Assembly (NCBI GenBank): GCA_016873295.1
Contig: VGXM01000001.1
Coordinates: 1-64,000, forward strand
Reading direction: 5' to 3'
DNA length: 64,000 nt
Source: Phycisphaerae bacterium
Lineage (GTDB): Bacteria; Planctomycetota; Phycisphaerae; Phycisphaerales; UBA1924
Shown piece by piece: positions 1-48,310 of the stretch. Numbering within the stretch: position 1 is the first letter of the stretch; every line of letters begins with the position of its first letter. The notes below the pieces were generated by a model, which saw only the letters and a list, made by a program, of their open reading frames with translations, had not been told where the DNA came from and ran no database searches. The position numbers and the translations under genes are program-made.

Positions 1-2
1 AC

Positions 3-1541
3 ACCGCGCGGGTGTGGGACGCGACCAGCGGCGCGAGCCTCGCCGAGCTCAAGGGGCACACGGAATACGTGACCTCCGCCGCGTTCAGCCCGGACGGGTC
101 GCGGATCGTGACGGCGTGGGGGGACGACACCGCGCGGGTGTGGGACGCGACCAGCGGCGCGAGCCTCGCCGAACTCAAGGGGCACACGAAGTACGTGACC
201 TCCGCCGCGTTCAGCCCCGACGGCACGCGGATCGTGACCGCGTCGAGTGACGACACCGCCCGGGTGTGGGATGCGGCGACCGGCAAGAGCCTCGCCGAAC
301 TCAAGGGGCACACGGCGGACATGACCTCCGCCGCGTTCAGCCCGGACGGGACGCGGATCGTGACGGCATGGGGGGACGACACCGCGCGGGTGTGGGACGC
401 GACCCCCGGTGCGAGCCTCGCCGAGCTCAAGGGGCACACGAGGGGGTTGACCTCCGCCGCGTTCAGCCCGGACGGCACGCGGATCGTGACCGCTTCGGGC
501 GACCAGACCGCGCGGGTGTGGGACGCGGCGACCGGCGCGAGCCTCGCAGAGCTCAAAGGGCACACGGAGTGGGTGACCTCCGCCGCGTTCAGCCCGGACG
601 GCACGCGGATCGTGACCGCGTCGGGGGACGACACCGCGCGGGTCTGGGACGCGGCGACCGGTGCGAGCCTCGCCGAGCTCAGGGGGCACACGGAGGACGT
701 GACCTCCGCCGCGTTCAGCCCGGACGGCACGCGGATCGTGACCGCGTCGGGCGACCAGACTGCGCGGGTGTGGGACGCGACCACCGGCGCGAGCCTCGCC
801 GAGCTCAAGGGGCACGCGGAGGACGTGACCTCCGCCGCGTTCAGCCCGGACGGCACGCGGATCGTGACCGCGTCGTGGGACAAGACCGCGCGGGTGTGGG
901 AGAGCGTGCCCTACCGCGAGCGGTTCCCGGCCACCGACCGTGCCCGGGCCGCGGCGGCCAAGATGGGGCCGATCGTTCAGGCCCGTCTGAGAGGCGGAGC
1001 GTCACCCGAAGGCCTGGCCGCCGCGTTCGCCTCCGACGCTTCGCTCTCACCAGCGGAATGCACCGCTGCGCAGGCGGCGTTGTTCACGGTGATCGACGAG
1101 CAAAGTGGCGCCGCCGAAGCCCGCGCCGCTGAGGCCGAGACGCTCAATACCGCGGCGTGGTACGCCGTGCGCTTTGCGCCGGTGACGCCCGAGGCCGCGG
1201 CCAGGGCCGTGGCGGACGCGCGCCGGGCGGTCGAACTCGCCCCCGAGGAGGGCTTCTACATCAACACGCTGGGCGTGGCCCTCTACCGCGCCGGCGAGTT
1301 CAGGGAAGCCCTCGACACCCTCACGCGCTCCGACGCCATCAACGCCAAGGGCGAGGACGGCCCCCAGCCCAGCGACATCGCCTTCATCGCCATGGCGCAC
1401 TGGAGGCTCGGGCACGAGGCCGAGGCCCGGGCGGCGCTGGCGAAGTTCCGGCAACTGGCGGTGGCAGAGCGCTGGAAGGCCGACGAAGAGGTCGCGCGGT
1501 GGGCGCAGGAACTCGACGCCCTGGTCCCGCCCGTGCCGTAG
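3..1541 (+). CDS. WD40 beta-propeller protein with C-terminal TPR-like region (5' end outside window)
   Basis: The frame is open from the window edge, so the N-terminus lies upstream. Residues 1 to about 295 are seven complete WD40 repeats of exactly 42 residues (126 bp), each with a GHT...VTSAAFSPDG(T/S)RIVTA...D.TARVWDA core, plus a partial first blade. The repeats are nearly identical at the DNA level. After the last WD (ARVWESVPYRERF) comes a roughly 200-residue alpha-helical region containing TPR-like helices (LNTAAWYAVRFAP and EGFYINTLGVALYRAGEFREAL). In planctomycetes this arrangement often follows an N-terminal Ser/Thr protein kinase, so the missing part may be a kinase; that is inference. 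The role is probably a protein-interaction scaffold. Convergent with the sigma-factor gene, 57 nt between stops. Confidence 0.85.
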   Translation, partial: TARVWDATSGASLAELKGHTEYVTSAAFSPDGSRIVTAWGDDTARVWDATSGASLAELKGHTKYVTSAAFSPDGTRIVTASSDDTARVWDAATGKSLAELKGHTADMTSAAFSPDGTRIVTAWGDDTARVWDATPGASLAELKGHTRGLTSAAFSPDGTRIVTASGDQTARVWDAATGASLAELKGHTEWVTSAAFSPDGTRIVTASGDDTARVWDAATGASLAELRGHTEDVTSAAFSPDGTRIVTASGDQTARVWDATTGASLAELKGHAEDVTSAAFSPDGTRIVTASWDKTARVWESVPYRERFPATDRARAAAAKMGPIVQARLRGGASPEGLAAAFASDASLSPAECTAAQAALFTVIDEQSGAAEARAAEAETLNTAAWYAVRFAPVTPEAAARAVADARRAVELAPEEGFYINTLGVALYRAGEFREALDTLTRSDAINAKGEDGPQPSDIAFIAMAHWRLGHEAEARAALAKFRQLAVAERWKADEEVARWAQELDALVPPVP

Positions 1542-8426: not shown

Positions 8427-10419
8427 CGCGGCCCTGTCCCTGCTGCTGGCGGCGGCCGCCCCCGCCCAAACGCTCAATCTGGGCGGGCCACCGGAACCCC
8501 CGCCTCGCCTGGAACTGGCCATGGTCGCCCACCGCCGGGTCGTGGAGCAGGAGCTTCGGCGTGCCGAGCCCGGCCCGGCGGGCGCGGCATCCCAGGCCCT
8601 CCGCCGGCTGGCGCTGGCGCTCATGGCCCGGGGCGAGGCCCCGGACGCGCTCCGCGATCCCGACGCCACCCAGGCCGCCCTCCTCGGGCTGACCATCGCC
8701 CGCCATCGGGCCCACCTCGATCGCGCCCTTCTGGAGGTCCGCGACGCGGCGGCGCTGGAGTCAGCCGCGGCCCTGCTCGCCTCGGGAGGGACCACCGCCG
8801 ACGTCGAGCGCGCGCTCCAGCGTCTCTTCGCCGAGGTTCGGCCCGCGGCGGGGCTGGGCGCGGGGTGGATCGACGCCGACGTGCCCACGAGCACGCCCGG
8901 TACCGCCCTGGTCGACCTGGCGGGGGCCGCCGCACTCTCGGAGGGGTCGGTCGCGGCGGTCGGCGCGATGGAGACCGAGTGGCAGGTCAGGCGGGCGACG
9001 CGGGCGTGGGGGCGCGAGGCCGAAGCGCTCCGCGCCGACCTGGCCCAGACCCTGGGCCTGCTCGACCCGCGCCGGCGCCTGGCGCCCGCGGCGAGGCTCA
9101 AGCCCTGGCGCGACGGGCTGGAGTCGGTCATCCCCGGCGTCAGTGGCGGCGACGCGCGGGCCGCCGCGACCCTGGCGCGCCTGGCCGCCCTGGGACGATT
9201 GACGTCGGGCCTGCCCACCCTCCGCAACCCGAGCGAGAGCCGGCGCCTCGTCGAAGCCCTGCTCGAACTGGACCTGTCGGGCCCGGAGACGGACGCGCGT
9301 CTGCGGGACGCCGAGTCGGCGGTGGCGTCGGCCTCGCGCGCGTTCGACCCCGCGGTGGAGCGCGGGCTGGTGCGGGAGCTGCGCCAGCCCTTCCGCGAGG
9401 TCGGGCTCTCGACGCGGGAGTCGGCGCTCGCCGTGGTGCGGGCCGCGACGGAGATCCTCACCAGGCCCGGCGCCATGTCCGACCCCGGGGTCCTCAGCGC
9501 GCTCAACAACCACGGGGCGCGCTGGGACGAGCTGGATCAACTGCGGGCGCTGGCCGACCTGATCCGCGAGGGGCCCGTGGCCAGGCCCGGCGTGGAGGCG
9601 AGGGTCGCCGAGCCCTTCCGCGCCCTGGCGCGCAGGCTCGTGGCGATCCAGCGGGACGTCGCGACGCCCGCGAAGCGCGACGCGGCCCAGGGCGAGCGGC
9701 GCGCGCTGGTCGCCGCCGCCGTCGGGTTCTGGTCGATCCCGGGCGAGGACGCGCTGCGGGCGCACGCGGGCGAGGCGGTTCCGGGGCTGGAGCGGGCGAC
9801 GGGCGGGCACGTGCGCGCGCTGCTGGACCGCCTGGACGCCGAACGCGCGGCGTGGCTGAAGGGGACGACCGAGGCCGGGGCGGCGCCCCCCGCGGCGGCG
9901 GAGGCACGCCTGCGCGCGCTGGCCCGCGTCGTTCCGCTGGCGCTGGACGCCGCGGCGTGGATCGCGGGCGGCGAACGGCTCAACGAGTGGCCCGGGTGGG
10001 AGTGCGGGCCCGAGGCGTGGCGCTGGGTGGGCGGCGACCTGGAGGGTCGGGTCGCGGCGGCGTGCGCCGAGGGCGCGCGCGCCAACGCGGTGGACCTGTC
10101 GCGCCGCCTGGACGCGCTGGAAACCGAGCACTCGGCGGGGCTGCTGGCCGGGGCCCTGGCCCGCGCGTGGGCGGCGCGGGTCACGCCCGCGGCGGACCCG
10201 GTGGACGCGGCCCTGGCGGAGCTCTCGGGCCCGGCGATGGGCCCGGGGGCGTGGATGGGGCGATGGCGCGTGGAGGTGGCGCGGGTGTGCCTGATCGCGG
10301 AGGAGGCGGCGGCGCTGTCGGCGTCGAGCGACGGGTCGCAGGCGCGCGGGCAGGAACGGCTGGCGGCACTTCGGCGCGCGCTGCTGGACGCCGCGGGGCC
10401 CGTGTCGGGCGTGCGCTGA
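8407..10419 (+). CDS. Secreted protein of unknown function, alpha-helical
   Basis: 670 residues from MPRPWRSAALSLLL, chosen because GGAGGAGGT lies just upstream and because it opens with a signal peptide cleaving near APAQ (residues about 1-21). The mature part is Ala/Arg/Leu-rich, predominantly helical, with no motif I recognise and no transmembrane segment. It starts inside the end of the glycosyltransferase gene (20-nt overlap in another frame), so it is probably translated from the same transcript, but nothing links the functions. It is convergent with the next gene with only 3 nt between stop codons. Codon use matches the neighbours. Confidence 0.75.
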   Translation: MPRPWRSAALSLLLAAAAPAQTLNLGGPPEPPPRLELAMVAHRRVVEQELRRAEPGPAGAASQALRRLALALMARGEAPDALRDPDATQAALLGLTIARHRAHLDRALLEVRDAAALESAAALLASGGTTADVERALQRLFAEVRPAAGLGAGWIDADVPTSTPGTALVDLAGAAALSEGSVAAVGAMETEWQVRRATRAWGREAEALRADLAQTLGLLDPRRRLAPAARLKPWRDGLESVIPGVSGGDARAAATLARLAALGRLTSGLPTLRNPSESRRLVEALLELDLSGPETDARLRDAESAVASASRAFDPAVERGLVRELRQPFREVGLSTRESALAVVRAATEILTRPGAMSDPGVLSALNNHGARWDELDQLRALADLIREGPVARPGVEARVAEPFRALARRLVAIQRDVATPAKRDAAQGERRALVAAAVGFWSIPGEDALRAHAGEAVPGLERATGGHVRALLDRLDAERAAWLKGTTEAGAAPPAAAEARLRALARVVPLALDAAAWIAGGERLNEWPGWECGPEAWRWVGGDLEGRVAAACAEGARANAVDLSRRLDALETEHSAGLLAGALARAWAARVTPAADPVDAALAELSGPAMGPGAWMGRWRVEVARVCLIAEEAAALSASSDGSQARGQERLAALRRALLDAAGPVSGVR

Positions 10420-16427: not shown

Positions 16428-19171
16428 AGGTTCAGGAACTCCAGGAAGTCGTTGAAGTCGACCAGGCCGTCGAGCGTGAGGTCGGCGCGGCGGTGGCGCG
16501 AGGTGAAGAGGTTGAGGAACTCCAGGAAATCGTTGAAGTCGACGTCGCCGTCGGCGTTGACGTCGACGGGGCAGGCGTCGCACTCGTCGGGTCGTCCGTT
16601 GCCGTTGAGGTCTCGGCTGACGAGGTTGAGGATGTCGCACTCGTCGGGCTGGGCGTTGTTGTTGCAGTCGGCGTGGTCTCCCGGGGCGAAGTCGAAGCCG
16701 GTGGGGGCGTTGATCTGGGTGTCGTTGCCGTTGATGTAGGGGCGCATGAGGTAGCCCAGCACGGGGTGGAAGATGAAGACGCGGGCGCTGGTGCGGTGGG
16801 AGTCGGTGGGTTGGATGGCCATGCTCACGTGCACGCCGTCGTGCCGGAAGCGGATGCACACGGGCCCGTTGAGGTTGAGGACGGTGGCGGTGCCGCCGTT
16901 GTTGAACCTGCGGAGAAAGGCGCCGGTGGCGGGGTCGTATTCGAGGACGGCGTCGGTGTTGTAGCTGCAGACCAGGAGGTTGCCGGTCGTGGGGTGGAAG
17001 GCGATGCCGCGCACGCCGTCGAGCCCGCCCAGCCCCGCGGCGACGACGACGCGGCGGAAGGCGCCGGTGTCGGCGTCGAACTCGAGGACGCGGTGGTCGT
17101 CGCTCGTGACGTACAGCCCGTTGGCGGGCCCGAGGGCAAGGCCCCAGGGGGACGTGAGGTTCTCGCCGCCGCGCGTGACGAGCGTCCGGAGGAGCGCGCC
17201 GGTGCCGGCGTCGTACTCGTTGACGCGGTGGTTCCCGGCGCTGGCGACGAGCAGTCGCCCGTCGGCGCGGCGGAGCATGGTCCGGGGCGTGTCGAGCCCG
17301 CCGCCGGCGACCAGGTCGCGGACGTAGTGCCCGTTGTGCCAGAACTCGACGACGCGGTGGTCGCCCGAGCTGGTGACCAGGACGCGCCGGTCGGGGGTGA
17401 CGAGGACGTCGCTGGGCTGGTCGAGGGCGCCGCCCGAGGCGCGGCGGGTGACCACGCCCGTGACGGAGTGGGTCTCGGAGAGCACGCCGTCGGACCCGAC
17501 GACCCAGGCGTGGTGGGCGCCGTCGAGCTCGACGAGGTCGGGGATGCCGTCGCCGTCGCAGTCCTGGCAGGAGTCGAGGACGGTGTCGCGGTCCTTGTCG
17601 AGGGTCATGTCGGCCATGATCTGGGAGAAGTCGCTGACGCCGTCGTTGTTGCAGTCGGGCTCGCACTCGTCGGGGACGTTGTCGAGGTGGAGATCGGTGC
17701 TCGTGCCCAGGGCGATGTCGAGGTCGTCGGGGACGGCGTTGCCGTTGCAGTCGGGCTCGCACTCGTCGGGGATGCCGTTGGTGTTCAGGTCGGTGCTCGT
17801 GCCGGAGCTGATGTCGAGGGGGTCGAGGACGCCGTTGGCGTTGCAGTCCTCGCACTCGTCGGGGATGCCGTTGGCGTTGGCGTCGGGGCTGGTTCCCGCC
17901 GAGATGTCGGCGGCGTCGGCGACGCCGTTCTGGTTGCAGTCGATCATGATGCAGGGGCGGGCGAGGATGTAGGGCCGCATCTCGTTGCGGATGGGGGTCT
18001 CGAAGCGGAGGTCCATGACGGCCTTGCCGCCGGAGACGGTCTGGGAGCAGTAGCTCATGATGCCGCCGCGGACGGCGGGGGTGTTGAGCTGGTCGCAGGT
18101 GTCGATGCCGTAGTCCGGGTTGTGGCGAGCGGCGCAGTTGTGCCCGAGCTCGTGCGCGGTCACGCCGATGTCGAACATGTGGACGCCGGGTCGGAGGGGC
18201 TCGGGGAAGGCGCCCTGGGCGTAGCCGACGACGCTGTACGAGTTGCTGTTGCAGAGCCCGTTCAGGTAGGCCACGCCGCCCCACGCCAGGTTGCGCCGCC
18301 CCGAGAAGAACTGGGCGACGTCGCGGGGCACGCCCTGCATGTTGGTGTTCCAGTGGGAGCGGAAGGCGCCCAGTGGGTCCGACCCGTTGAACAGGTCGTT
18401 CACGGTGTCCCAGATGCGGATGAACGTCAGGTCCACGCGGGTGTTCAGCTCCGACAGGTAGATGTCGCTGACGGCGGCGTACACGCGCACGACGTAGTCC
18501 GTCGCCGCCTGCACGTTGTTGAACAGCAGGTAGTACTCGTAGTCGGTCTCGATGGCCATCTCGATGCGGCGCAAGTCGCGGCGGGCGGTCGAGTCGGCCG
18601 ACGACGACGGTGGTTCGAGCGGCTGGGCGTGGTGGGGCGGGCCGTGCTCGCCGTGGGGCTCGGTCTGGAGCCCGCAGAGCTCCGGCCCAGGGCTGGGCAC
18701 CGACCCGTCGTGGGGGAAGACCAGGACCTGGGCGCCGGGCAGCGGCACCCCTCCGTTGTGCGACGAGATCCAGTAGCGCTGACCCGAGCGGTCGGGCGTG
18801 ATCCAGCCCGTCGTGCCGTGGGGAGTGGTGACGAGGAAGGCGCGGGACCCGTCGCGGCCGCGGAGCGACCCGCGATAGGCCCGGACGGCGGACCAGTCGA
18901 AGTCGACGGGCGTGTCGGCGGCGTCGAGACTCCCGAGGACAACCCGGGCCCCGGGGCTGGCGACCGGGAAGCGTTCGAGATCGAGTTCCACGGCGCCCAG
19001 GCCCGGGACGCGGAGCCCGAGCGCGAGGGCGGCCCCGCCGGGCCCCGCGCCGTCGAACAGGGCCAGTTCGCAGGTTTCGACCCGGGGCATCGCCGGGGCG
19101 ACGCCCTGTCCGAACACCGAGCCCGCGGACCACACACCGACCGCCGCCGCACCGATCAAGCACGTTCGCAT
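16409..19171 (-). CDS. Secreted metzincin metalloprotease with NHL-type propeller and dockerin repeats
   Basis: 920 residues, start MRTCLIGAAAVGVWSAGSVFGQ (signal peptide). Residues about 130-400 are a reprolysin-like catalytic domain: Zn motif HELGHNCAARH (first His about 340, HExxHxxxxxH spacing) and Met-turn GGIMSYC. Then come four to five calcium-binding, dockerin/thrombospondin-3-like repeats (DCNxNxxxDxxDIxxGTSxDxNxNxxPDECE), about 430-540. A six-repeat NHL-type beta-propeller (VLVTPDRRVLVTSSGDHRVVEF and relatives) follows, then one more DCNNNAQPDECD unit. The end is a GC-type dockerin tail, two DFNDFLEFLNL units with terminal Cys. Extracellular or surface-anchored protease; the substrate is unknown. 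Confidence 0.88.
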   Translation of the reverse strand: MRTCLIGAAAVGVWSAGSVFGQGVAPAMPRVETCELALFDGAGPGGAALALGLRVPGLGAVELDLERFPVASPGARVVLGSLDAADTPVDFDWSAVRAYRGSLRGRDGSRAFLVTTPHGTTGWITPDRSGQRYWISSHNGGVPLPGAQVLVFPHDGSVPSPGPELCGLQTEPHGEHGPPHHAQPLEPPSSSADSTARRDLRRIEMAIETDYEYYLLFNNVQAATDYVVRVYAAVSDIYLSELNTRVDLTFIRIWDTVNDLFNGSDPLGAFRSHWNTNMQGVPRDVAQFFSGRRNLAWGGVAYLNGLCNSNSYSVVGYAQGAFPEPLRPGVHMFDIGVTAHELGHNCAARHNPDYGIDTCDQLNTPAVRGGIMSYCSQTVSGGKAVMDLRFETPIRNEMRPYILARPCIMIDCNQNGVADAADISAGTSPDANANGIPDECEDCNANGVLDPLDISSGTSTDLNTNGIPDECEPDCNGNAVPDDLDIALGTSTDLHLDNVPDECEPDCNNDGVSDFSQIMADMTLDKDRDTVLDSCQDCDGDGIPDLVELDGAHHAWVVGSDGVLSETHSVTGVVTRRASGGALDQPSDVLVTPDRRVLVTSSGDHRVVEFWHNGHYVRDLVAGGGLDTPRTMLRRADGRLLVASAGNHRVNEYDAGTGALLRTLVTRGGENLTSPWGLALGPANGLYVTSDDHRVLEFDADTGAFRRVVVAAGLGGLDGVRGIAFHPTTGNLLVCSYNTDAVLEYDPATGAFLRRFNNGGTATVLNLNGPVCIRFRHDGVHVSMAIQPTDSHRTSARVFIFHPVLGYLMRPYINGNDTQINAPTGFDFAPGDHADCNNNAQPDECDILNLVSRDLNGNGRPDECDACPVDVNADGDVDFNDFLEFLNLFTSRHRRADLTLDGLVDFNDFLEFLNLYNAGC

Positions 19172-46005: not shown

Positions 46006-47346
46006 ATGGCTCACGCCCGGCCCGACAAGCCTGACCTGCTCGTGATGGCGGCCCTGGCGGGCGTTTTCGCCGTGGCCCTGGGGTCGGCGGTGCTGAGCCC
46101 GGCGGTCTCGCTGGACTGGGCCATCGCCGCGACGGCCCTGATCGGCGCCGCCGCCCTGTTCGCGTCGATCCGCGAGCGACGGCGCGAGCGCGGGCGCATC
46201 GACGAGGGCGTGCGCACGATCCTGGGCCGACTGGGGGGGTCGGCGGCGTCGGGCGCGCCGGCGGGCGAGACGCTCGCCCGGTGCGTCCGGCTGCTCGACG
46301 CCGCCCTGTCGGCGGACCGGGCCCGGGGTGGGCTGGCGGCCGCGGTGCTCCGGGGCGTGGGCGAGCCGGTGATCGCGACCGATCGCAACGGGCGCGTGAC
46401 GCTCTTCAACCCCGCCGGGGCCGACCTGTGCGCCCCCCGTCCGCCGGCGGCGGGCGACCCGCTCGACGCGCTCTTTGCCTCGCGCGAACTCCTCGACCTG
46501 CACGCGGCGGCGCTGCGGGGCGAGCCCGGACGGGCCCAGGCGCGGCTGGCGGTCCGGGGCGGCACGCGCACGTTTCAGGTCGGCGCCGCGCCGCTGGAGG
46601 ACGGCGGGGCCGTGCTCACCCTCCGGGACGTGACGGACGTGGCGGCGGCGGCCCAGCTCAAGACCGACTTCGTCGCCAACGCCTCGCACGAGCTGCGCAC
46701 GCCCCTGGCGTCGATCCGCGCCGCCGTCGAGACTCTGGGCGACCAGGCCCGCGACGACCCCGCCGCCGCCGAGTGGCTCATGGGCAAGATCGTGGGCAAC
46801 CTCGACCGCCTCGACGACCTGACGCGCGACCTGCTCGACCTGTCCCGCATCGAGTCGCCGGAGGCGGTCGTCCGCATCGTCCCCGCGCGGGCCTCGGCGA
46901 TCGTGGCGTCGGCGTCGGCGGACGTGCAGCCAGCCCTGGCGCGGCGCCGACTCACCCTCGCCCTCGACCTCGACCCGGCCCTCGAACGCCTCCGCACCGA
47001 TCCGGGCCTCGTCGCCCTCATCCTCAAGAACCTGCTCGACAACGCCGCCAAGTTCGCCTTCGAGGGCACCGAGGTGCGCCTCGTGGGCCGGCGGACCCCG
47101 GCGGGAGCCCGCTTCGAGGTGGTCGACCGCGGCGTGGGCATTCCGCTGGAGCACCAGGCGCGGGTCTTCGAGCGCTTCTACCAGGTCGACGAGGCCCGCG
47201 CCGGCGGTGCCGAACGCGGCACGGGGCTGGGGCTGGCCATCGTCAAGCACGCCGCCAAGGCCCTGGGCGGAACCGTGGGCCTCGAGAGCGTCTGGCAGCG
47301 CGGCACCACGGCGTGGGTCGAGATCCCCGACGGCGTCGAGGCGTGA
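46006..47346 (+). CDS. PhoR-like sensor histidine kinase
   Basis: 446 residues. Two N-terminal transmembrane helices (about 10-28 and 34-52) with almost no periplasmic loop, as in PhoR, so it senses inside the membrane or through partner proteins. A PAS domain follows at about 110-210 (VIATDRNGRVTLFNPAGADL). HisKA: FVANASHELRTPLASIRAAVETL with phospho-accepting His about 228. HATPase: KNLLDNAAKFAFEGTEV (N box), DRGVGIPLEHQARVFERFYQVD (G1/F box) and GTGLGLAIVKHAAKALGG (G2). It autophosphorylates and passes phosphate to the upstream-encoded regulator. Confidence 0.93.
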   Translation: MAHARPDKPDLLVMAALAGVFAVALGSAVLSPAVSLDWAIAATALIGAAALFASIRERRRERGRIDEGVRTILGRLGGSAASGAPAGETLARCVRLLDAALSADRARGGLAAAVLRGVGEPVIATDRNGRVTLFNPAGADLCAPRPPAAGDPLDALFASRELLDLHAAALRGEPGRAQARLAVRGGTRTFQVGAAPLEDGGAVLTLRDVTDVAAAAQLKTDFVANASHELRTPLASIRAAVETLGDQARDDPAAAEWLMGKIVGNLDRLDDLTRDLLDLSRIESPEAVVRIVPARASAIVASASADVQPALARRRLTLALDLDPALERLRTDPGLVALILKNLLDNAAKFAFEGTEVRLVGRRTPAGARFEVVDRGVGIPLEHQARVFERFYQVDEARAGGAERGTGLGLAIVKHAAKALGGTVGLESVWQRGTTAWVEIPDGVEA

Positions 47347-47470
47347 TCCGGGCGCTCGCTGGTCCATCCGCCGGACGACGGGCCCACACACGCCGTCGCC
47401 GAGTCCGAACAGCGATCGGAAGGACCTTCTCGGCGAGCGTGAAGTGTCCTCGCCCCAGCGGGGCGGCGGA

Positions 47471-47526
47471 ATGGAGCCGCGGGTAGAGTGCGGCCCGCGT
47501 CATCGCGGGCGGAGCGCAACCCGTGG
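47471..47526. repeat. REP-like palindromic element, third copy
   Basis: Same ends as the pair at 4201-4395 (ATGGAGCCGCGGGT to GCAACCCGTGG), with a different self-complementary core (CCCGCG-tcat-CGCGGG). A CGCCCC-agc-GGGGCG hairpin (47451-47465) flanks it, like the one beside copy 1. It lies in the 1-kb gene-free stretch after the kinase gene. Confidence 0.65.
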
Positions 47527-47747
47527 AGAGCGTGAATCGGCCCGCCCCGCCCCGGCAGGGGCGGGGGTCCTGCGGAGGGTGTTTCAAGGCCCTGCGGACG
47601 GCATTCGAAGGCGCACCCCCGCCGAGACCCGCACAATCCGCCCGCGACTCCAACCGACTTGGCGCGTTGGTGCGCTGATGCGGAGAGGGCGGCACGCCCT
47701 CTCCGCACCTCTCCCTGCCCGGAAAGGAAACGACCGCCGCGCTGGTC

Positions 47748-48154
47748 GTGCGCCGTGTGCCACGACTGTGCCGCTTGGGGCACAGTCGTGTCCGGCGAGG
47801 GACGCAGTGACCGGTGACGGACGCACGACTGTTCGCCGAGCCGAACAGTCGTGTCCGGCGAGGGACGCAGTGTCCGGCGAGGGAAGCAGTGTCGGGTGAC
47901 GGACGCACGACTGTTCGCCGAGCCGAACAGTCGTGGCACGCCGTGTGCCACGACTGTGCCGCTTGGGGCACAGTCGTGTCCGGCGAGGGACGCAGTGTCC
48001 GGCAACGGACGCACGACTGTTCGCCGAGCCGAACAGTCGTGGCACGCCGTGTGCCACGACTGTGCCGCTGGGGGCACAGTCGTGTCCGGCAAGGGACGCA
48101 GTGTCCGGCGACGGACGCACGACTGTTCGCCGAGCCGAACAGTCGTGGCACGCC
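47748..48154. repeat. 106-bp tandem array of two alternating hairpins sharing one stem
   Basis: Hairpin A (30 nt; CACGACTGTGCC stem, GC-loop) occurs at 47761, 47949 and 48055. Hairpin B (30 nt; CACGACTGTTCG stem) occurs at 47824, 47906, 48012 and 48118. Both share CACGACTGT / ACAGTCGTG and differ only in the inner three stem pairs and the loop. In the regular part the unit is A, a 33-bp spacer, B, then a 13-bp linker, giving exactly 106 bp. The first part is irregular (82- and 188-bp steps). The spacers contain TCCGGCGAGGGACGCAGTG. No coding frame in 47347-48310 is believable; the rest of that stretch holds only the element at 47471. Confidence 0.85.
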
Positions 48155-48310
48155 CCCGGGCTTGCCGCGGGGGCGCTTCGAGGTCGGCGGCCTGGCGTGC
48201 GGCGGCGTCCGTGCCCACGCCGCGTGTGATGCACTCCCCTCGGCCCAAGCGCAAGTCGGTTCCCGTTCGCGTCCGGCGCGTGGAACACTGCTGAGGAGTT
48301 GCGATTCGTC

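Follow-up and report, generated by a model that had tools for sequence, protein, structure and literature searches.

What is the block of tandem hairpins between positions 47757 and 48151 of this 64,000-nucleotide stretch (the window), and does it act as an RNA of its own locus or belong to a family that spreads through the genome? A stretch of about 1 kb without genes holds the array, from the end of a histidine kinase ORF at 47346 to the start of a fibre-like ORF. The fibre-like ORF has no match in Pfam or NCBIfam. The locus is laid out as follows.

46006-47346, forward strand: PhoR-like sensor histidine kinase ORF, upstream of the array, with relatives in many Phycisphaerales.
47757-47790, forward strand: GTGC tag and type G hairpin (CACGACTGT GCC GCTTGG GGC ACAGTCGTG), left end of element 1.
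47791-47823, no strand: 33-nt spacer TCCGGCGAGGGACGCAGTGACCGGTGACGGACG.
47824-47853, reverse strand: type T hairpin without its GCAC tag, an extra internal copy that breaks strict alternation.
47854-47905, no strand: expanded spacer of 52 nt.
47906-47939, reverse strand: type T hairpin and GCAC tag, right end of element 1.
47940-47944, no strand: GCCGT, which joins elements 1 and 2 and recurs at 48046-48050 to join elements 2 and 3.
47945-48045, no strand: element 2, made of GTGC and hairpin G (47945-47978), a 33-nt spacer, and hairpin T with GCAC (48012-48045).
48051-48151, no strand: element 3, made of GTGC and a loop variant of hairpin G (48051-48084), a 33-nt spacer, and hairpin T with GCAC (48118-48151).
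48148-48300, no strand: 3' flank of the array; over 153 bp it is 97% identical to the corresponding flank of a second array, on contig C5.
48299 (or 48359)-50866, forward strand: repetitive fibre-like ORF, downstream.

We retrieved the seven predicted 30-nt hairpins (47761-47790, 47824-47853, 47906-47935, 47949-47978, 48012-48041, 48055-48084 and 48118-48147) and their 106-bp tandem period, which starts at 47870; its two full units agree at 101 of 106 positions. As had been claimed, every hairpin has the same nine outer pairs (CACGACTGT/ACAGTCGTG) without a mismatch. The inner pairs are GCC/GGC in three hairpins and TCG/CGA in four, so that all have 12 uninterrupted stem pairs and a loop of 6 nt. 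The seven in the gap are also the only hairpins of this geometry in the window, and shuffled sequences contained a mean of 0.0. The two predicted hairpin types are thus confirmed, but not their strict alternation, since they are arranged as A B B A B A B. The prediction also overlooked a tetranucleotide at the foot of the hairpins: GTGC is found at 47757, 47945 and 48051, and GCAC ends at 47939, 48045 and 48151.

The source genome, a Phycisphaerales-type metagenome-assembled genome (MAG) of 3.14 Mb, is fragmented (104 contigs) and about 95% complete. It contains 275 exact matches to CACGACTGT-N6-16-ACAGTCGTG, and none to a control with the reversed pattern. To study the hairpins we took stretches amounting to 1.14 Mb of the 3.14 Mb and allowed at most two stem mismatches, which yielded 118 hairpins that form about 16 clusters or single elements. 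The half-stem 9-mers are almost confined to hairpin clusters in the stretches checked, and 15 of the 16 clusters or elements are outside the (crude) gene models. The palindrome is therefore short, multicopy and mainly intergenic, as are REPs. Both the multiplicity and the intergenic placement are direct observations. A further hairpin family, of the GGACAGGCGGGACGCCTGTCC type, is interspersed with or adjoins GTGC dimers (L132, about 16545-16630; L121, about 8760-8850).

The foot tags reveal the unit of repetition. Among the 118 sampled hairpins, 51 have GTGC directly 5', 59 have GCAC directly 3', none has both and eight have neither. Exactly one tag is thus present in 110 hairpins, and left and right tags mostly alternate. 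Since hairpins carry one tag and never both, the unit is a heterodimer, GTGC-hairpin-spacer-hairpin-GCAC, which is tandemly repeated. This is the layout of a REPIN, whose repeated unit is two inverted, tagged palindromes with a short spacer between them. When the 110 tagged hairpins are oriented by their tag, 52 are of the GCC..GGC type, 19 of the TCG..CGA type and 39 of the CGG..CCG type. Each dimer has one GCC hairpin and one TCG or CGG hairpin, with several families of spacers, which in common forms measure 13-33 nt. The rule of tag and dimer can be read directly in the sampled sequences and holds in at least four dimer subfamilies. The swapped inner stem of the two hairpin types therefore marks a constant distinction between the left and right ends of the element.

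The difference between the types had been taken to indicate selection on structure. None of the three hairpin types (52, 19 and 39 copies) showed a compensated pair change; the changes in them are broken or one-sided. Hence, the array itself gives no support from covariation, and the claim fails as far as compensatory evolution within the array is concerned. It holds at the level of families, by selection or by propagation: pairing, tag and dimer layout are kept across families and genomes whose stems differ altogether. For example, the source genome has other GTGC-tagged dimer families. The stem itself is specific to this genome. A search for the hairpins in related genomes, suggested in the original prediction, gave no match to the pattern in any of 60 relatives and none to its tagged form in 162 other genomes of the family.

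REP-associated tyrosine transposases (RAYTs) are HUH/Y1 enzymes that act on single strands. Another suggested check, for a Y1/RAYT transposase, was positive: the source genome has seven Y1_Tnp genes. Two of these, divergent and free-standing (C50 and C54), have GTGC-tagged dimers or hairpins on both sides, with stems (CACGGGC.../CACGGGTCAT... and CACCGATGTCGG...) that differ from CACGACTGT. Their proteins match the NCBIfam model REP_Tyr_transpos (NF047646) with E-values of 1.3e-30 and 8.1e-22, the latter being that of C50, which at 77.7 bits is just below the curated cut-off of 80. The alignment of their clade (A1) shows both an HUH motif (PEHVH) and a tyrosine motif (Y[IV]HxNPV). It matches 45 of the 81 genomes in our search of relatives, including the source genome, where C50 and C54 are the only free-standing copies and a related domain is found inside the valyl-tRNA synthetase (ValRS).

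We then quantified the association between tag and enzyme. The 38 loci of the RAYT clade, which include some places twice (e.g. L178 and L205) so that counts are not all independent, have 102 hairpins tagged GTGC, spread over 25 loci, and 2 tagged GTAG. GTGC ranks first of the 256 tetranucleotides as a hairpin tag at these loci, and the runners-up, TGCC and GCCA, read as GTGC sites shifted by one or two bases. The background at histidine-kinase loci was 26 in 500 kb. IS200-like Y1 loci carry the GTAG tag instead, and the tag therefore follows the clade of the enzyme. This linkage between GTGC and the RAYT clade is observed directly. We also detected the loop motif GCTC or GCTT in 18 of 33 GTGC REPs near RAYTs, i.e. 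in about half. The dinucleotides GC and GA, at which cleavage is predicted, were not more frequent than others 3' of the hairpins in 33 representative REPs. A long tandem array of CGCCCCAACGGGGCG hairpins adjoins an IS200-like Y1 gene (L005:2140-2520).

While GTGC-tagged families with other stems flank RAYT genes (L010, L011 and relatives), we saw no such flanking for the CACGACTGT stem: neither the seven Y1 genes nor a genome-wide profile search placed a RAYT gene within 1.5 kb of any CACGACTGT hairpin. Hence, we can only infer which RAYT mobilises the CACGACTGT elements. The family may be mobilised in trans, it may be defunct, or an adjoining RAYT may be missing from an assembly that is fragmented and incomplete.

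RAYT-like domains (NF047646) also occur in frame inside housekeeping enzymes of the same bacterial family: ValRS, LeuRS, RdgB/XTP diphosphatase and glycine C-acetyltransferase (L203/L244, at G000:C8:9521-10339; L245-L256; L270; L271; L272; L262-L267). The ValRS with this domain is present in the source genome and at least 10 other genera, and the match spans the ValRS flanks. In the source genome the domain keeps its HUH motif (DDHVHLLL), and the tyrosine position is a serine. Our literature search found no paper on RAYT domains inside housekeeping enzymes.

In our view, the block very likely consists of tandem copies of a REPIN-like element peculiar to this genome, i.e. a short, non-autonomous DNA that would move as a single strand by a RAYT mechanism. 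The element would consist of two different inverted hairpins with a short spacer between them, each bearing GTGC at its outer foot, where the right-hand one reads GCAC. A RAYT of the clade found elsewhere in the genome would bind the folded single strand through tag and hairpin and cut near the hairpin foot, after which the element would be copied or moved into intergenic single-stranded DNA. Whole dimers would then multiply in tandem by unequal recombination or replication slippage. The C5 locus shares the array and its 3' flank with the locus studied here, but not the fibre gene. The array is present in both copies, and a search through this shared flank thus gave no empty site that would show the insertion of a single element directly.

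Other repeats are found in the window. In the gap of the array, a second REP-like family (CCACGGGT...ACCCGTGG), which is GTAG-tagged elsewhere, is represented by a degenerate copy at positions 47452-47562; this copy is 81% like a stretch adjoining the C49 Y1 gene. Positions 47672-47754 hold a repeat with a GGAGAGGGCGGCACGCCCTCTCC hairpin that is 89% like a C1 stretch near 112.2 kb (L108:12234-12315). At the start of the window (1-901), a 126-bp tandem repeat is present in seven copies and is probably coding (WD40-like by eye).

Alternatively, this one locus could encode a structured RNA or riboregulator that switches between folds as its left and right arms swap partners. The predicted RNA fold is strong (z = -9.8), and arm exchange, which the original prediction deduced from the identical outer stems, is physically possible. 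However, the sampled third of the genome has the same elements at many intergenic sites unrelated to one another, the hairpin types lack compensatory changes, and the tag rule would be left unexplained. The array has no Rfam match over the gathering score, and the weak matches are to eukaryotic RNA models. This explanation is thus very improbable, and we rejected it because of the genome-wide multiplicity of the element (275 stems; 118 sampled hairpins). An assembly artefact at one locus has some appeal, given that repeats are hard to assemble and that this draft genome is fragmented. Yet these dimers are present on several contigs, where their flanks and the number of units vary, and the same layout is found with other stems in other genomes. 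We regard an artefact as extremely implausible, even if the number of units at the array locus could still be wrong.

A more serious alternative is that the hairpins are REP-like 3'-end elements, terminators or mRNA-stabilising elements co-opted by host genes, with mobility in the past and present selection on the transcript end. Functions of this sort have been suggested for REPs (PMC3733652), and several clusters start about 20-75 bp after the end of the upstream gene. The orientation of the neighbours is mixed, however, and a terminator scan revealed no poly-T terminator at the array. We find this rather unlikely as an account of the array, but it is compatible with a REPIN-like element and the two are not mutually exclusive. 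The elements are also short, palindromic, multicopy and non-coding, as expected of a MITE or an element with terminal inverted repeats moved by a DDE transposase. Such a mover is highly doubtful when the genes flanked by GTGC-tagged hairpin dimers, in the source genome and its relatives, are Y1/RAYT genes.

The original prediction stated that no family of this kind was known, which does not stand: the array follows the working principle of REPs and REPINs, with a new four-base tag. REPINs, doublets of tagged palindromes in inverted orientation, are linked to RAYTs and have been described in tandem clusters, some of them of mixed type, in Pseudomonas fluorescens SBW25 (PMC3116915). The SBW25 REPINs (GI-GIII) are like the array in being inverted tagged doublets with a spacer, intergenic, present in many copies, linked to RAYTs and sometimes clustered in tandem. 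The family described here differs in its tag, in dimers that regularly combine two hairpin types with an outer stem in common, and in the lack of a RAYT adjoining CACGACTGT. GTAG- and CGTC-tagged REPs share with the array the short stem-loop, the unpaired foot tetranucleotide, head-head dimers, heterodimers and tandem groups, and both heterodimers with different stems and reiterated dimers have been described in GTAG families (PMC3733652). GTGC is neither of these tags. The published definition of REPs requires GT[A/G]G (PMC3686654, PMC6006769), with CGTC also named (PMC3733652), so that the array fails strict membership while fitting the working principle. We did not find the GTGC tag in the main texts of the REP papers searched for it, including PMC3733652, and a full-text search gave no relevant paper.

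The BIMEs of E. coli are likewise mosaics of palindromes in a genome that encodes a RAYT, but the stems of our array are perfect over 12 bp and lack the bulge that E. coli TnpA-REP needs (PMC8266576), and the tag differs. CGTC REPs without a dedicated transposase (PMC3733652) resemble CACGACTGT as an abundant family with no adjacent transposase, whereas in our source genome RAYT genes are flanked by other families tagged with GTGC. In the key-motif table of Quentin et al., the HUH motif is DH.H or NH.H. The GTGC-linked clade has PEHVH instead, and judging by these motifs it may be an undescribed subclass of RAYTs.

We lean towards the view that Phycisphaerales carry a distinct class of REPs, with the tag GTGC instead of GT[A/G]G and their own RAYT clade (PEHVH; Y[IV]HxNPV). 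Stems would turn over between genomes while tag and clade stay, and families such as CACGACTGT would multiply in trans, without a linked RAYT. The array itself is not a new kind of RNA. Its interest lies in the proposed rule that the foot tetranucleotide sets the target of the RAYT: in the Marinomonas system an altered GTAG predictably altered the cut site (PMC8266576), and a natural GTGC system would put this rule to the test. By our reading, the guide rule predicts cuts at GC or GA for GTGC. These results would extend the biology of REPINs to a deep phylum, in which stems differ between families while the tag and the clade of the enzyme are common to them.
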